In this document: piece by piece, positions 4,979 to 29,904 of the stretch
Position numbering within the stretch: the first letter of the stretch is position 1
How the letters are laid out: every line of letters starts with the position of its first letter
Source: Olsenella sp. Marseille-P4559
GTDB taxonomy: Bacteria > Actinomycetota > Coriobacteriia > Coriobacteriales > Atopobiaceae
NCBI RefSeq assembly: GCF_900605015.1
Contig: NZ_LR027573.1
Span: forward strand, 375,995-439,994
Length of the DNA: 64,000 nt
Direction: 5' to 3'
Notes under the pieces: model-generated
What the model saw: only the letters and a program-made list of their open reading frames with translations
The model's database searches: none
What the model was told of the DNA's origin: nothing
Translations under genes and position numbers: made by a program

Positions 4979-4988
4979 TCCCATGACG

Positions 4989-5119
4989 GTTTCAGGGCGG
5001 GGTGAAAATCCCCACTGGTGGTGACGCGCTCGGCGCGAAGTCCGCGACCCGCTAAAAAGGCGGCTGACCTGGTGAGACTCCAGGACCAACGGTTACAGTC
5101 CGGACGGAAGAAACGGAGA
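4989..5119 (+). promoter_or_regulatory. FMN riboswitch (RFN element)
   Basis: The six-helix FMN aptamer is readable by its conserved blocks: GGGCGGGGTGAAAATCCCC, then AGTCCGCGACCC, GACCTGGTGA with TCCAGGACCAACGG, and AGTCCGGACGGAAGAAACGG at the end. In bacteria FMN binding shuts down downstream riboflavin genes by terminating transcription or hiding the ribosome site. No U-tract terminator is seen after it, and the ribU ribosome site GGAG (5115-5118) lies at the very 3' edge of the element, so control of translation initiation is likely. It precedes ribU directly. Confidence 0.96.
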
Positions 5120-17164: not shown

Positions 17165-17299
17165 CGCCAAATACGCGCTTCCGGCGACCGGACACGCCCC
17201 CGTCGCCAGCGGCACGTCGCCCCTACAGGTACTCAACCACCTTGTCGCCCATGGCGGCGGTGCCCAGGACGTGGTCCGCCGGCGTGGCGTCGTCGGCGA
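17164..17299 (-). repeat. Displaced copy of the leuB 3' end (left direct repeat)
   Basis: These 136 bases match 29768-29904 in the same orientation with eight substitutions and one single-base gap (about 93%). The repeat covers the last ~24 codons of leuB (minus strand, ending VVEYL and stop at 17223) and ~60 bases of its downstream flank. The intact leuB lies 12.6 kb away, so this is an orphan tail. The arrangement resembles the left attachment site of an island that inserted at the leuB 3' end. Confidence 0.88.
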
Positions 17300-17546
17300 G
17301 GAACCTCGTGTTGGCGTCATCCCGTAGCGCACACCTGAGCTTGGACAACGTCCTCGCGCCGGCGATGGTCGACCCTTCGACGCTGAACGAGAGGATGTAC
17401 AGCTCGCCACCCTCCGCCTCGTAGGTGCCGACGGCGCCACGCGTCACCCCGTCGGGCAGCTCCTCGCTGAGGAACCTGTCTTTGACCTCGCGCTTCTGAT
17501 GAGGTACGTGAGCTGTATCAGTACGACCCCATGAACTTCCCGCCAT
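17223..17546 (-). pseudogene. Chimeric ORF: unknown protein fragment fused to the leuB C-terminus
   Basis: The 107-residue frame has two parts. Residues 1-84 (for example VTRGAVGTYEAEGGELYILS and STIAGARTLSKLRCALR) look like real coding sequence but I do not recognise the family. Residues 85-107 (ADHVLGTAAMGDKVVEYL at the end) are the LeuB C-terminus. The join falls at the edge of the direct repeat (17299), so the original gene lost its own 3' end when the leuB tail was placed there. It begins inside the end of the restriction endonuclease gene. Probably non-functional. Confidence 0.6.
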
Positions 17547-18465
17547 CGAGGTGGATCATGTGGTCGGGCGTGTCGGCGCACCATGCCTCGGTCTCCCACG
17601 CGAGGTCGCCGAGGTAGTCCTGCATGACCTTCCTGCTCGGGAAGCACGAGACGTAGGCGATCGGGTGTCCGCAGTCGCCGAACAGCTCGATGAGCTCGTT
17701 CTTCCTCGTGACGTCCACCGGGCCGTGCGTCGAGCACGCCTCCATGAGGTAGAGCCAGCCCTTGTCCTCGCGCCAAACGATGAGATCAGGCTCTTTGCCG
17801 CGCTCGAGCAGCTTGACCCCGATGCGTTCCAGCGTCTCGGCATCGACCGTCTCGTCGACCTTGCTCGTGTCGCCGACGTAGAGCACCTTCCCGCCCGGTG
17901 CGAAGCGCGGGCAAAACTCCTCGACCATCGCCTTGATGAGCATGTTCTGACCGCCCGCCGAGAGCTTGACCTCGGTGCCGTCCGGGAGCGTGACCGGCAC
18001 CTTCGCCATCTCGCGACGCTCGGAGCTGTACTCGACCCACGTGGTTATCCCCTCAAGGCAGATCTCGAGCTGGTCGGGATACCACGATGTCCCGCACCAT
18101 GTCACGAGGTCGAGCGTGTCGAACGTGAGCCGATAGTTCCACTTCGGGGAGTTGATCGGGCGCGTCGGGTCGTCCGCGTTCTCCTCGATGATGCCGACCT
18201 GCACGAACTGGTGCAGCGTGAACCGCCTGATCTTCTCACGCGTGTTCGGTTTGTACTCGACACCGAACGCCTCAGCGATCCGGTCCATGATCGTGCGTAT
18301 GCCGTACATCCCGTTCGTCGCGCTGCGCCAGTCGTCGCCGGGCTTGAGATGCGCGAGCGCGAGCAGCACCATCGCAGAGCGCTCGTTGCTGCGCTCGTCG
18401 TCCATACCGAGGTCGCGCAGCAGCTCGCGCGTGCCCTCGACGCTTACGGAAGGACCGATCGACAC
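17518..18465 (-). CDS. Type II restriction endonuclease, BsuBI/PstI family
   Basis: The 315-residue protein matches the size of BsuBI and PstI, isoschizomers that cut CTGCAG. The GTG start at 18465 is chosen because it gives that length and follows GGAGG; the longest frame (from 18603) only reads through the methylase. Family features are EPDLIVWREDKGWLYLMEA with the following THGPVDVTRK, forming the PD-(D/E)xK-like catalytic core, and the C-terminal FPSRKVMQDYL and HLDGGKFMGSY. It overlaps the methylase end by 22 bases, so the two are made together. The recognition sequence is inferred from the family only. Confidence 0.88.
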   Translation of the reverse strand: MSIGPSVSVEGTRELLRDLGMDDERSNERSAMVLLALAHLKPGDDWRSATNGMYGIRTIMDRIAEAFGVEYKPNTREKIRRFTLHQFVQVGIIEENADDPTRPINSPKWNYRLTFDTLDLVTWCGTSWYPDQLEICLEGITTWVEYSSERREMAKVPVTLPDGTEVKLSAGGQNMLIKAMVEEFCPRFAPGGKVLYVGDTSKVDETVDAETLERIGVKLLERGKEPDLIVWREDKGWLYLMEACSTHGPVDVTRKNELIELFGDCGHPIAYVSCFPSRKVMQDYLGDLAWETEAWCADTPDHMIHLDGGKFMGSY

Positions 18466-19841
18466 AGCCCGTCCACCTCCTCCTGCGTGAGGCCGAGCAA
18501 CCAGCGACCGCCCAGCTCGATCAATTGCCTCGCGCTCGGCACGGGCATCGCGTTCAGGTCGCTCGCGTTGACCTGCGTGCTGCCCGAGCGCGCCCGAAAC
18601 CACGCGTCAACCTCACTCGACGAGAGCCACAGCTCGAGGCCGCGCGCGAGCGCCGGGTCGAGCGGCACCGTCTTCCTCGGCGTGCCCGCGTGGACGTAGT
18701 TCAGATGGTTCTCGAGCGTTTGCGGCTCGCCGAGGTCGAGGACGTGCGCCTTCACGCGGCGTGACTCCTCCTTCGACGAGAACCGCTTCACGACAACGTA
18801 GCTGCCAGCGGGTATGAGCTGCTTGGCGAACCTCTCGCTCGAGCAGTCGATCCACTGGGGTTTGTAGCTGTCGACGGGGTGTGTGTAGCCCTCCGACGTG
18901 AAGTTCCACGCGTAGATGAGCCGGTTCAGCCCCGGCTCGTAGTCGCGTCGCAGCACGTCGCGCGAGCGGAAGTCCACGACCTTGCCCGTGCTCGCGCAGA
19001 GCCCGGACGCCTTGAGCGTCGCCATGCCGTCGAGCGGACCGCGTCCGGCGGGCGTCACGCGCACCGCGAGGTCGCCTCCTGTGTCCACGAGCTCGTCGAA
19101 CGGGTACTCGCGGACGACGGGCTCGCCGTCCTTCACCTGCGACTCCGACACGCGGACGGTCGGCGCCTGCGGCCGCTTCGAGAACCGTACGAGCATCGTC
19201 TCCTGCAGCACGTTCGTATCGGAGAAGATTTCGGTCCGCGAGCCGTAGACGTGCATCGCGTCGAACGAGCACGTGGACAGCGCCCATGCCCGGAACTGCT
19301 GGAAGTACTGCCCGTTCGTCCACGAGCGCGGCACGATTGCCACACACTCGCCGCCAGGCGCGAGGGCACACAGCGCGACCATCATGAACGCCGAGTACAG
19401 GTTTGGCGAGCGCGCCGGGAGACCTGCCTGCCGCACGTCTCCGGCGGCCATCTTCCTGTACGGCGGATTCAGGATAACCCGGTCGTAACCGGGCCCGATC
19501 GGTACTATGAGGGCGTCGCCGACCGCCACGCGATGGGGAATCTCGAGCTGCGACAGCTCGCCGTCGCAGATGCGGGCGAGCTCGGGGTCAAGCTCCACGC
19601 AGTCGACGTCGACCCGGCCGCCGTAGCGCTCGGCGAGTGCAACCGAGAGGATACCGGTCCCCGCACCGAGGTCGAGGCAGCGCAGCCTGCCGCCGTCCGC
19701 GTCGGAGAGCATCGAAGCGGCGAGGTGCGCTGTCTGGTACGGCGTGAGGTACTGCGAGTAATCTGAGCGCGCGGTGTCGCCGGTCGTCGCGACCACGTGC
19801 GACCTCGTCTCCTCCGCCATCAGCAACGCGCTCGCGACCAT
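18444..19841 (-). CDS. N6-adenine DNA methyltransferase of a BsuBI/PstI-type restriction-modification system
   Basis: A 465-residue methylase that would protect host sites from the adjacent nuclease. SAM motif I reads DLGAGTGILSVAL (about 57-69) and catalytic motif IV is NPPYRKM (about 126-132), in the I-then-IV order of gamma-class adenine methylases. The C-terminal half holds the target-recognition region and an Eco57I-like tail. The start at 19841 follows GAGGTGAT. Methylase first and nuclease second in one transcript is the usual safe order. The pair sits next to the displaced leuB tail, consistent with arrival on an island. Confidence 0.9.
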   Translation of the reverse strand: MVASALLMAEETRSHVVATTGDTARSDYSQYLTPYQTAHLAASMLSDADGGRLRCLDLGAGTGILSVALAERYGGRVDVDCVELDPELARICDGELSQLEIPHRVAVGDALIVPIGPGYDRVILNPPYRKMAAGDVRQAGLPARSPNLYSAFMMVALCALAPGGECVAIVPRSWTNGQYFQQFRAWALSTCSFDAMHVYGSRTEIFSDTNVLQETMLVRFSKRPQAPTVRVSESQVKDGEPVVREYPFDELVDTGGDLAVRVTPAGRGPLDGMATLKASGLCASTGKVVDFRSRDVLRRDYEPGLNRLIYAWNFTSEGYTHPVDSYKPQWIDCSSERFAKQLIPAGSYVVVKRFSSKEESRRVKAHVLDLGEPQTLENHLNYVHAGTPRKTVPLDPALARGLELWLSSSEVDAWFRARSGSTQVNASDLNAMPVPSARQLIELGGRWLLGLTQEEVDGLCRSVLP

Positions 19842-19980: not shown

Positions 19981-20027
19981 AAGCCCCGCCGCTCCTCGGC
20001 GCAAATCCGAGTGGACGACGGGGCTTT
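19981..20027. terminator. Stem-loop terminator-like structure
   Basis: Outer stem AAGCCCCG / CGGGGCTT with an inner CTCGG / CCGAG stem, followed on the plus strand by TTTG. On the minus strand it lies between the remnant gene at 20153 and the methylase, and may mark the end of the former. Confidence 0.6.
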
Positions 20028-20421: not shown

Positions 20422-20450
20422 TTGAGGGACCCCAAGCCATACGCTATAGT
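20422..20450 (+). promoter_or_regulatory. Promoter of a putative small RNA
   Basis: TTGAGG (20422-20427), a 17-base spacer and TATAGT (20445-20450) make a good sigma-70-type promoter pointing away from any plus-strand gene. It is followed within 80 bases by a strong hairpin. Confidence 0.6.
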
Positions 20451-20456
20451 TCAGCC

Positions 20457-20533
20457 GATGTGCCCGATAAGCCATTGGGCGCATCCCTTCTTTTCCGTCG
20501 GTCGCCCACCCCCAATGGGCGGCCGACGGTTTA
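20457..20533 (+). ncRNA. Putative small RNA antisense in sequence to the yhfT translation start
   Basis: A transcript starting near 20457 would run ~77 nt to a 14-bp stem (CCGTCGGTCGCCCA with TGGGCGGCCGACGG, 20495-20529) followed by TTTA. Bases 20472-20498 equal the plus strand at 27546-27572 at 25 of 27 positions. The RNA could therefore pair with the yhfT mRNA from upstream of its Shine-Dalgarno through the ATG. Both differences would be G-U pairs. The region is also convergent with the end of the amidase gene. The alternative is a relic of a duplicated yhfT start: on the minus strand an ATG at 20475 opens a 29-codon frame. Confidence 0.5.
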
Positions 20534-20545
20534 CGTGACGCTGCC

Positions 20546-21613
20546 CTAGAACAGGTCTAGCGCCCGTGGCGGTTTCTGCCGGTCGTGAAAATAGCTTACA
20601 AGCATCTCTGGTAGCTGGATATGGGCCGCAAGCTCGTGCGCAAGGCGCACCGCCCCTCGCGCGGCCTCGACACCCGGACCGCAGGAAACGAGAAGCCCGC
20701 AGGCCAACTCGCCAGTCGGCACGCAGACCGCCGAGCCGCCCGCCATGTTCACGGACTTGCAGACCGCCTTGGAACGCACGTGTGCCACCATGTCAGGAGC
20801 CACGCCGCCAAAGCCGCGAGGGATGGTCTCGTCCGCCGAAAGCACGTCGATAGGCCCCTCAAACGTCACCACACAGGCTAGGGGTTCACGTTCCCACAGA
20901 GCACCCAGCTCGGGCACAGTGCGCTTTCGATCATAGACGTCGGAGAAGGCGTAATCGGAAGCAGCAGGCAGGCCAGCCTCAGTGAGAAACCCATCTACCT
21001 TCTTGCGCATGTCTTCTCCGCCGGGGAGCAGCGTCGAACCAGCGACGGGTGCCACCACCCGCGGCAACGCACCACCCGCAAGCGACTCCCCACAGGCAAG
21101 CTCTGCGGCTGAAATTACCAGTCCCAAGCCCCTCCTGATGAATCCCACACCGCCTCGAAACACAAGCCCGTCCGTCGAACGCCCCTCGCCCGTTGTCAGA
21201 AGCCCCAGCCCCTTTCCCATGACGGCAAAAAGGTTTGTTGCCAGCGCCGGGGCAAGCACGCTCCCGCCGCCGTCGGTCCCTATGCAAACGTCGTTTACCC
21301 CCTTCAACACGTTTATCGGGCCACCACTGGTAGACCCCGTCATCGCCCTGTAGGTCAGCGGGTTCACGAGCTCCGTATCCACACTTCGTCCAAGGTCGGC
21401 CTTGTGGTCAACGGTGAGCACGAGCCAATCGGGCGACAGGAGAAAACGGTCGAGAAGCTCTTGGGGCAGCCCAGCATCATCTTTTACGCCAAGGCACGAG
21501 AAGCCCTCGCACTTGTGCGATGCCTCTTCACGCGCATGCGGGTTTATCGCCACGACGGAGCGACCGAGGGCGCGGCCCGCCACCACGAGCCGGTCCTCGA
21601 GGGAAAGCGTCAT
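20546..21613 (-). CDS. Amidase-signature-like protein, last gene of the yhf operon
   Basis: A 355-residue protein. ATG 21613 lies two bases after the yhfW stop, favoured over an upstream start inside yhfW. It resembles amidase-signature enzymes: GVKDDAGLP could supply the catalytic Lys, and GSTSGGPINVLKGVNDV and GTDGGGSVLAPA match the Gly/Ser-rich signature with the cis-Ser and nucleophilic Ser. It is shorter than typical amidases (450-500), so a divergent or minimal form. The genes around it suggest it hydrolyses an amide intermediate of the unknown yhf pathway. The E. coli yhf operon lacks this member. Confidence 0.7.
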   Translation of the reverse strand: MTLSLEDRLVVAGRALGRSVVAINPHAREEASHKCEGFSCLGVKDDAGLPQELLDRFLLSPDWLVLTVDHKADLGRSVDTELVNPLTYRAMTGSTSGGPINVLKGVNDVCIGTDGGGSVLAPALATNLFAVMGKGLGLLTTGEGRSTDGLVFRGGVGFIRRGLGLVISAAELACGESLAGGALPRVVAPVAGSTLLPGGEDMRKKVDGFLTEAGLPAASDYAFSDVYDRKRTVPELGALWEREPLACVVTFEGPIDVLSADETIPRGFGGVAPDMVAHVRSKAVCKSVNMAGGSAVCVPTGELACGLLVSCGPGVEAARGAVRLAHELAAHIQLPEMLVSYFHDRQKPPRALDLF

Positions 21614-21615
21614 CC

Positions 21616-22842
21616 CTAACCCCTGATCTGCGGCCAGAAGCTCGTGCCGTTCTCCGGCGAAGGACACCCAAAGTAGTCCGCAACCGTGGCGCCCACATCA
21701 GAGAGCGTGGCGCGCGTCCCGATGCAGCCCACCGGTGCCCCTTCGTGCGAGATAAGGAGAGGCACGTACTCGCGGGTGTGGTGCGGGTGCCCAATGGTGG
21801 GGTCGTTTCCGTGGTCTGCTTGGACCACAAGGACGTCCTCAGGTGCCAGCGATGCGCGAATCTGCCCGATGATGCCGTCAGCAATCGTGAGCTTCTCGGC
21901 GTAACCAGCAACGTTCTCACGATGTCCCATGAGGTCGGTCTCCTGCACGTTGGTGCAGATGAAGCCGCTGCCCGGCTGCCTGACCAGCTCCAGAGTTCGC
22001 GTCAGCACCTCAGCGGTATCAACAATGGACTCCGATTCGCCAAAGCGATTGGCGCAGACGTCTGCCACCTTGCCCAGAAGGCGCACGTCAACGCCATGCT
22101 CCCCCAAGATGTAGGGCACCTGGACCTTCTCGTCGACGCCATAGCCCATATGGATGCAGTGATAGTCATCGTTATAGACGCCAGAAGCAGGCGCGTTCAC
22201 GCCAATGAAGTCATCGTGCTCCTCGACGGCGGCAAGCAGATTGTCGAGGTGGACGCTGCGCCCGCCAAAGGTGATGACGCGCGGGGTCTTTGCGATGCCG
22301 CGAACAATGCGACCAATCCTGAGTTCTGTATCAAAATCCAGGTCGTCGATTGCGGCGGTCACATTGAAGGCCTGGCCAGGGTCACACTCGACATTGTCCG
22401 CCACGGTACAGGCATCATTGACAATGATGAAACGCATCCCGGATTTCTCGGACGTGTAAAAGCGCACCGAGAAGCCCTTCCCGGTCAACGCCTCGGCAAT
22501 TTCGTCAACTGCGACCTGAATAGGCTCGGTCAACGGCACCGGCGGCTTGGTTCCCATGATTTCCTGGTGCCCATAGAAGGTGTCTGCACCCTGATGCGTA
22601 AGGGTGCCGCGTCCCCAAGTGGCACCAGGCGAGAAGGGTAGGCCGGCAAACTCCTTGCCCGCCGCATTCGCCAAGCCAAGTTCGGCCAGGTTTGGCAACG
22701 CCAAGCCCGGCGTTCGCTCGAATATGTGGACGCAGGTATTGGCCCCAATGTCAGCCGGCCGGACCTCCGGAACATCGGGCATCTGCCCCACGCCAAAACC
22801 GTCCAGGACAATGACGACGAACTTTCCGCGCTTCTCCTGCAT
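21616..22842 (-). CDS. yhfW: YhfW-like phosphopentomutase/alkaline phosphatase-superfamily metalloenzyme
   Basis: A 408-residue protein related to phosphopentomutase DeoB. The N-terminal VVIVLDGFGVGQMPD gives the first metal Asp, NVQETDLMGHRENV and VQADHGNDPTIGHPHHTRE supply the distal Asp/His ligands of the two-metal site, and HQGADTFYGHQEIMG lies in the cap. It may move or remove a phosphate on a pentose-like or related substrate. It lies between the alanine-racemase-like yhfX and the amidase-like gene, separated from yhfX by 58 bases. ATG 22842 follows AAGGGGGA. Confidence 0.85.
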   Translation of the reverse strand: MQEKRGKFVVIVLDGFGVGQMPDVPEVRPADIGANTCVHIFERTPGLALPNLAELGLANAAGKEFAGLPFSPGATWGRGTLTHQGADTFYGHQEIMGTKPPVPLTEPIQVAVDEIAEALTGKGFSVRFYTSEKSGMRFIIVNDACTVADNVECDPGQAFNVTAAIDDLDFDTELRIGRIVRGIAKTPRVITFGGRSVHLDNLLAAVEEHDDFIGVNAPASGVYNDDYHCIHMGYGVDEKVQVPYILGEHGVDVRLLGKVADVCANRFGESESIVDTAEVLTRTLELVRQPGSGFICTNVQETDLMGHRENVAGYAEKLTIADGIIGQIRASLAPEDVLVVQADHGNDPTIGHPHHTREYVPLLISHEGAPVGCIGTRATLSDVGATVADYFGCPSPENGTSFWPQIRG

Positions 22843-26214: not shown

Positions 26215-27549
26215 TTACGCAGCAGCGAGGGCAACGAGACCGACGGCGTAGAGCAGGTTCAGGATGATGCCAGTGCCCAGGGCGAAGACGGGGCCGATGG
26301 CCATGCGCATAATCTTGCGACCGGTGGCCTCGTTCACGTAGAAAATGGCGGCGGCGATGGCAAACGCCAGAGCGGCGTTACCCACGGAGGTGCCCATCAC
26401 GATGACGGCATTCAGAGAGCCAAAGAGAACGGCAAACTCAACGGTAGTACCCATAGCAGAGCGGATGTTGTCCGCGGCGTCACGAAGGCTGGGGAAGCGG
26501 CCGAGCTGCCTGCCGATGACAGACAGAAGCATAACCTCGCAGAAAATAATGGCGGCGCCAAGGGCGGCGGCGACAATCGGGTTCGGAGAGAGGTAGCCAG
26601 CAACGTAGACGAAGGTGAAACCCGCAACACCGTAGACGCCGGTGGTAATGGCCGTGACGGCAATCAGCGGGATGAAGCTAATGCCGCGGAAGAGCTCGTT
26701 GACGGCAGCGGTCTGAATCAAGCCGGCGGTGTCAGCGCCCGCAGTGTAGTAGGCGTCATGCAGGTTGAACATAGAGACAGTAGAGCCGGCAAACAGGTGC
26801 AGGTTGCAGACCACGGCAATGAGGGCACCGCAAATCATCAGGAACGGCACGTTCTTGCGGATGCGCGCGACACGCTCGGTGAACACGTTGTCCTCGAACT
26901 CGCCAGGACCGTCCTTCTTCTCCTTGCTGTCCTTAATGATGCAGAAGATCACGAGCGCAAGCACGCCAACAAGCAGGCACCAGGCATCGGCGCTAATGGA
27001 GGTCTGGGTGGGGCCGAACTTCCACATGGGGCCGACAACGCGGGCGAGAAGCGCAATGACGGCAGTGATGATTCCACGCTTCCAACCAAACTGCATGATG
27101 ATGGCAACAACGGGGAACAGGGCAAAGCCGGTCACGATGTAGGTGCCAAGCTGGCCAAGGGCCCCAAGGACGTCAACAGGCAGGAAGGTCAGAACGGTAT
27201 TGATGCCGCCGAGGCCCACAAGGCACAGGACGCCCCATGCGGCTCCGGCAACAGCAGCCGACACCTTATTGGGGCAGAAGGCACCGATGATGTCGGTTGC
27301 AAGGAAAAGCAACCAAGGGTTGAGCAGGTTCGTGGCAAGGGCGTTACCGATGCCGACCGACGCGATGAAGCCGATGCAGAGACCAAAGACCGCCACACCG
27401 TACTCGGGGCGCGGCATGCGACCCTCAAGCATCTCTGGCACGAACGGACGAACGCCGTCGTTGAACACGGCAACTCCAAGATGAGAGCAGAGAGCCGTCA
27501 TGGCGCAAAGTGCGCCAACGAGCAAAATGCTAAAAGCGTTGACTTCCAT
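26215..27549 (-). CDS. yhfT: YhfT-like integral membrane protein, putative transporter
   Basis: A very hydrophobic protein of 444 residues with about 11-12 membrane segments. It belongs to the YhfT family, assumed to import the substrate processed by the operon. Segments include ILLVGALCAMTALCSHLG at the N-terminus and GVAGFTFVYVAGYLSPNPIV near residue 325. A charged cytoplasmic loop (KDSKEKKDGPGEFEDN) lies in the middle. ATG 27549 has AAGAAGGG nine bases upstream; an ATG at 27558 touches that site and is unlikely. The start region is complementary to the putative small RNA at 20457, suggesting post-transcriptional control. Confidence 0.85.
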   Translation of the reverse strand: MEVNAFSILLVGALCAMTALCSHLGVAVFNDGVRPFVPEMLEGRMPRPEYGVAVFGLCIGFIASVGIGNALATNLLNPWLLFLATDIIGAFCPNKVSAAVAGAAWGVLCLVGLGGINTVLTFLPVDVLGALGQLGTYIVTGFALFPVVAIIMQFGWKRGIITAVIALLARVVGPMWKFGPTQTSISADAWCLLVGVLALVIFCIIKDSKEKKDGPGEFEDNVFTERVARIRKNVPFLMICGALIAVVCNLHLFAGSTVSMFNLHDAYYTAGADTAGLIQTAAVNELFRGISFIPLIAVTAITTGVYGVAGFTFVYVAGYLSPNPIVAAALGAAIIFCEVMLLSVIGRQLGRFPSLRDAADNIRSAMGTTVEFAVLFGSLNAVIVMGTSVGNAALAFAIAAAIFYVNEATGRKIMRMAIGPVFALGTGIILNLLYAVGLVALAAA

Positions 27550-27662
27550 TGAGCACATCCCTTCTTTTCCGTTTCCTTCCGAGCGGCCTTATCCGCCCGG
27601 CGAAGCCTACGTGCATATGCGACACGGCCCCCACGACCTCGCCGCGCACGTCAGAGCGCGAG

Positions 27663-29767: not shown

Positions 29768-29904
29768 TCGCCAAATACGCACTTCAGTCGACCGGACACG
29801 CCCCCCGTCGCCAGCGGGACGCCGCCCCTACAGGTACTCCACGACCTTGTCGCCCATGGCGGCGGTGCCCAGGACGTGGTCCGCCGACGTGGCGTCGTCG
29901 GCGA
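29768..29904 (-). repeat. leuB 3' end and flank (right direct repeat)
   Basis: The right-hand copy of the ~136-bp direct repeat described at 17164-17299. It contains the functional leuB stop at 29828. The identity stops inside the codon run before the DDATSADHV segment. Confidence 0.88.

Follow-up and report, generated by a model that had tools for sequence, protein, structure and literature searches.

The window (the whole stretch of 64,000 nucleotides of Olsenella sp. Marseille-P4559 DNA analysed here) carries a yhf operon on its minus strand. Among the products of this poorly understood metabolic operon of a gut bacterium are a GntR-type regulator, a PRD protein and YhfT, a membrane protein that is likely to be a transporter. 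Adjoining the last gene of the operon, on the opposite strand, is an element with the layout of a small RNA gene. The features are as follows, in window coordinates:

17518–18603: frame resembling a restriction endonuclease (by eye), adjoining the methylase gene
18444–19841: methylase gene, Eco57I-like, between the leuB repeats described below
20422–20450, plus strand: sigma-70-like promoter, TTGAGG, 17 nt, TATAGT (9/12 consensus)
20457–20533, plus strand: small RNA gene, predicted to be ~73–77 nt (fold energy and covariance model)
20457–20485, plus strand: stem 1, 12 pairs (arms 20457–20468 and 20474–20485), loop AAGCC, in the same register in L021 and L022
20472–20498, plus strand: yhfT-pairing block, 27 nt
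20486–20494, plus strand: unpaired linker CCTTCTTTT, whose sequence complements the yhfT ribosome site
20495–20529, plus strand: stem 2, 14 pairs (arms 20495–20508 and 20516–20529), loop CCCCCAA
20546–29352, minus strand: yhf operon (yhfZ, PRD protein, yhfU, yhfT, php, yhfS, yhfX, yhfW and an amidase-like last gene)
20546–21667, minus strand: amidase-like last operon gene (no Pfam family matched; amidase resemblance marginal)
26215–27558, minus strand: yhfT, the target gene (PF10797, Pfam E 8e-137)
27546–27572, minus strand: predicted target, the yhfT ribosome site through the start codon (AUG at 27549)
27619–27645, minus strand: yhfT leader hairpin with a G-rich loop, GUGGG (predicted fold; proposed second contact)

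The promoter motif and the ~77-nt region ending in a 14-bp hairpin, both noted in an earlier sequence-only reading, are present, with an RNA start predicted at ~20457. Stem 1 was absent from that description and is added here; the yhfT-pairing block includes its 3′ arm. Both stems are perfect in the window, where the RNA has a minimum free energy of −48 kcal/mol (z −8.1) and the linker an unpaired probability above 0.7 by fold computation; in L021 and in L022 the equivalent linker is likewise open. As stem 2 has no clear U-run behind it, the 3′ end of the RNA is uncertain. The element has no match at gathering score to any Rfam family.

The pairing block is identical to 27546–27572 at 25 of its 27 positions, and because both differences give G-U pairs the predicted RNA duplex is unbroken (−50.3 kcal/mol), as the sequence-only reading had claimed. 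Across the 3.09-Mb genome the block has a single significant second match, the yhfT start (E = 2e-4); a degenerate 20-nt core of the block finds two matches in the window versus 0.01 expected by chance. When duplex energies were scanned along both strands of the window, only the RNA's own complement ranked above the yhfT start; the next site reached −35.3 kcal/mol (mean −16.5, sd 4.1). The pairing covers both the ribosome site and an ATG, as had been stated, although the start codon probably lies 9 nt deeper in the gene than had been assumed. The first ATG of the frame (27558) touches the ribosome site with zero spacing; the second (27549) aligns with the ATGGAA of the relatives, 9 nt from the GAAGGG ribosome site, and the YhfT proteins of those relatives begin MEI or MEV. 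Judged by this alignment the second ATG is the likely start codon, and the pairing block would therefore span the ribosome site to exactly AUGG. The location of the RNA at the 3′ end of yhfT's own operon was also confirmed; the candidate is thus a small RNA predicted to pair with a gene start in its own operon, through a 27-bp duplex over the ribosome site and AUG.

Among the 140 genomes searched in the family the yhf operon is patchily distributed, with a same-type YhfT in five (the window's own included); the other four proteins show 80–81% identity. Searches at the level of order and class added one further operon of this type, in the order (G047, locus L040). Gene order within the operon is conserved among these relatives. 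The element was found directly after the last yhf gene at L021 (Candidatus Olsenella pullistercoris, Atopobiaceae) and L022 (Atopobiaceae), in the latter case following an operon without the amidase-like gene. A covariance model run on the 140 family genomes strongly recovered only the three operon-associated copies; the carriers are three species, two of them from one genus. L023 keeps a pairing-competent yhfT leader and has no RNA gene after the operon, and none was found in the rest of its 92%-complete genome. L020, L024 and L025 have another type of yhfT start and leader and no element after the operon, and no second copy was found in the L020 genome; at L040 the contig stops before the expected position of the element. 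Weak covariance-model matches in other genera (E 3e-4 and higher; e.g. L054, L055 and L057) were rejected as GC-rich hairpin pairs without a yhfT-like linker context, as were three-mismatch pattern matches in G130 (L033 and L036), which lie outside yhf operons.

Two neighbourhoods deserve mention in their own right. L023 (G130) and L021 seem to share the gene beyond the operon, L023 being without the ~400 bp that contain the RNA gene, and they appear to be a natural gain or loss pair for it. The yhf operon at L025 (G142) seemingly has the same downstream neighbour as that at L022, yet its YhfT is divergent (34%) and the RNA gene is missing, as if the RNA and the yhfT type went together.

The two stems occupy identical alignment columns in the three species, with 93% of cells paired and compensatory change at six pairs; none of 500 shuffles was as good, and slid controls were 30–48% paired. 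Stem 1 has changes on both sides in four of its 12 pairs, and stem 2 is paired in 97% of cells with two compensatory pairs. The single-stranded C/U linker and the C-rich loop are likewise kept in all three species. The alignment holds 12 G-U pairs on the plus strand versus two A-C pairs (which would be G-U on the other strand), and the fold z-scores for the window, L021 and L022 are −8.1, −6.5 and −5.3 on the plus strand versus −3.8, −2.7 and −2.5 on the minus strand; wobbles and z-scores together mark the plus strand as the predicted RNA strand. A −10 hexamer matching the consensus at five of six positions lies upstream of stem 1 by 6, 1 and 6 nt respectively (TATAGT, TACAAT and TATTAT), against a background of 0.4–0.6% per position in each source; the −35 boxes are weaker, that of L021 weakest. 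The search of relatives for covariation that the sequence-only reading had suggested thus finds a structured plus-strand RNA in the same place in three species. The decay it had named as counter-evidence, a persisting yhfT-like block with hairpin and promoter lost, is not what is seen, as L021 and L022 keep the stems and the −10 hexamer. The element has the make-up of a small RNA repressor: a conserved structured RNA, an accessible stretch complementary to a ribosome site, and a promoter of its own (recognized by consensus and position only). The possibility of a small protein common to the copies and encoded on the operon strand was rejected; the short frames of the window and L021 are unrelated and the L022 copy has no ATG.

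These comparisons bear on whether the element is a decayed, functionless duplicate of the yhfT leader and start at the operon end, as had been offered as an alternative. On the operon strand the sequence is indeed a direct copy of the yhfT ribosome site and start, and in L021 and L022 the similarity extends a few bases further upstream. However, the intergenic DNA outside the element is not alignable among the three species, and amid such flanks the stems, linker, loop and promoter hexamer form an island of conservation in which pairing is maintained; stem compensation and the plus-strand wobble bias require selection on an RNA, and the copies have no common reading frame. We regard a relic as improbable. 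A slightly smaller chance attaches to a function of that copy on the operon strand itself, as a 3′ untranslated decoy or sponge that titrates whatever binds the first yhfT ribosome site. The minus-strand hairpin has no U-run and the next strong hairpin is at ~19981–20027, so that operon transcripts may read through the small RNA gene and carry the second site; folding, wobble bias and promoter nevertheless all favour the plus strand, and a decoy may coexist with an antisense RNA without necessarily replacing it.

Each copy resembles the yhfT start of its own species (23, 21 and 20 matches of ~25) more than it resembles the other copies (only 16–18), and the local alignment of each copy with its cognate start was equalled by none of 2000 shuffles. 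The predicted gain on co-folding with the cognate target is −21.3, −12.2 and −17.7 kcal/mol for the three species. By these predictions the preference for the cognate start is incomplete: the L021 RNA forms a stronger duplex with the yhfT start of L023 (−46.5) than with that of L021 (−36.7), and yhfT is outranked in the duplex scan for L022. Gene conversion between copies could explain part of the cognate similarity.

A further point of complementarity lies in the yhfT leader. The C-rich loop of stem 2 complements the G-rich loop of the window's leader (−12.6 kcal/mol), and against the G-rich stretches of the window, L021, L022 and L023 leaders the energies range from −8.9 to −12.6 kcal/mol. 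Weaker values were obtained for the short leaders of L040 (−2.3 to −3.9 kcal/mol) and L020 (−4.7 to −7.1 kcal/mol), which are without a G-rich-loop hairpin; such hairpins are seen by inspection in L021, L022 and L023, that of L021 lying outside the minimum free energy fold. This complementarity suggests two-site pairing between the RNA and yhfT, which is offered only as a proposal since the window's leader loop exposes only ~5 of the complementary bases.

Tracking of the yhfT start, together with conservation of the loop, is left unexplained if the element is a pair of terminators between convergent transcripts, with stem 1 and CCTTCTTTTCC ending rightward transcription and stem 2 ending the operon. 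The U-rich tract after stem 1 is terminator-like, and by inspection a convergent gene is apparent beyond the element in L021 and L022. The left neighbour in the window, however, is on the minus strand, so there is no upstream need for a rightward terminator, and stem 2 has no U-run on either strand; we consider this explanation very unlikely. Least credible is a binding site, in DNA or RNA, for an operon regulator (YhfZ or the PRD protein), occurring both at yhfT and at the operon end. A GntR-type regulator and a PRD protein are indeed encoded in the operon, and a short sequence is common to both places, but stems that depend on G-U pairs are a signature of RNA and not of DNA, and the stem pair is not common to the two places.

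We therefore favour a putative antisense RNA gene of ~75 nt that would block yhfT translation, and put the probability of this reading at roughly 0.8. On the comparative evidence a real, conserved small RNA gene is well supported, as is yhfT as its predicted target. The RNA would be transcribed from its own promoter on the plus strand, from 20457 to ~20530, convergent to the yhf operon. Its open C/U-rich linker (CCUUCUUUU) would nucleate on the yhfT ribosome site as the likely first contact, and pairing would then extend along the 3′ arm of stem 1, forming the 27-bp duplex over ribosome site and start codon; the C-rich loop of stem 2 could meanwhile kiss the G-rich hairpin loop of the leader. 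Ribosome entry would be blocked and yhfT output lowered relative to the rest of the operon; downstream genes might perhaps also be lowered, by coupling or decay. The origin was probably a copy of the yhfT leader and start placed at the operon end and read from the opposite strand. No match to an Hfq gene was found in the 98.7%-complete genome, where control searches were positive; the candidate does not therefore fall among Hfq-dependent trans-acting small RNAs, and the lack of a detectable Hfq gene is in keeping with an RNA dependent on long pairing.

The earlier proposal of feedback control is not supported as stated. Negative feedback does not follow, because the RNA has a promoter of its own, on the strand opposite the operon, and does not derive from the operon mRNA; and given the possible read-through of the RNA gene by operon transcripts, mutual antagonism between operon and RNA is as plausible as feedback. 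A bolder and distinctly tentative version is a self-derived antisense switch, in which the operon copied its own yhfT leader and start to its end, the copy read backwards represses yhfT, and read-through acts on the RNA as perfect antisense and by promoter interference, the mutual inhibition making a toggle inside one operon.

Cis-encoded antisense RNAs of the plasmid CopA/RNAI type have extended complementarity, stem-loops, a possible kissing start and no need for Hfq, and the candidate RNA shares these properties by prediction. It differs in that the target start is 7 kb away and the complementarity comes from repeated sequence, not overlap; the only overlap of the RNA is with sequence beyond the last operon gene, and so it is not cis-encoded with respect to yhfT. 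In Vibrio cholerae, OppZ and CarZ are sense-strand RNAs that RNase E releases from the operon mRNA, with feedback built in (PMC7398697). Like them, the candidate lies at an operon 3′ end and is predicted to pair with transcripts of its own operon and inhibit translation, the effect of OppZ being suboperonic (PMC7398697); unlike them it is assigned to the opposite strand by its stems, wobble bias and promoter, in a genome where no Hfq gene was found. RNAIII of Staphylococcus aureus, a long multi-target RNA, makes a loop-loop contact within the coding region of coa mRNA (PMC2837412). The likeness is in the two distant contacts, a ribosome-site duplex and a loop-loop interaction (PMC2837412), both predicted here; RNAIII, however, is encoded elsewhere, whereas here the proposed loop contact is in the leader and the duplex is nearly perfect. 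The literature searched on yhfT and small RNAs described no such RNA and no small-RNA control of yhf. If expressed, the element would represent a conserved small RNA of Atopobiaceae directed at a specific target, in a genome without detectable Hfq; it would exemplify gene-specific control inside an operon gained by placing a copy of the target start, read backwards, at the operon end, and would provide a first regulatory handle on the yhf operon and YhfT.

Some observations concern the surroundings of the element. The amidase-like last gene is missing from the L022 and L025 operons and is seemingly broken in L021 (three matching pieces). A 103-bp direct repeat (17197–17299 and 29802–29904, 95% identical) contains the 3′ end of leuB and brackets 12.6 kb comprising the methylase gene, the restriction-endonuclease-like frame and the entire yhf operon with the RNA; this region looks like an island inserted at the leuB end. 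Elsewhere in the window, an FMN riboswitch is present at 4984–5119 on the plus strand (RF00050, 101 bits).
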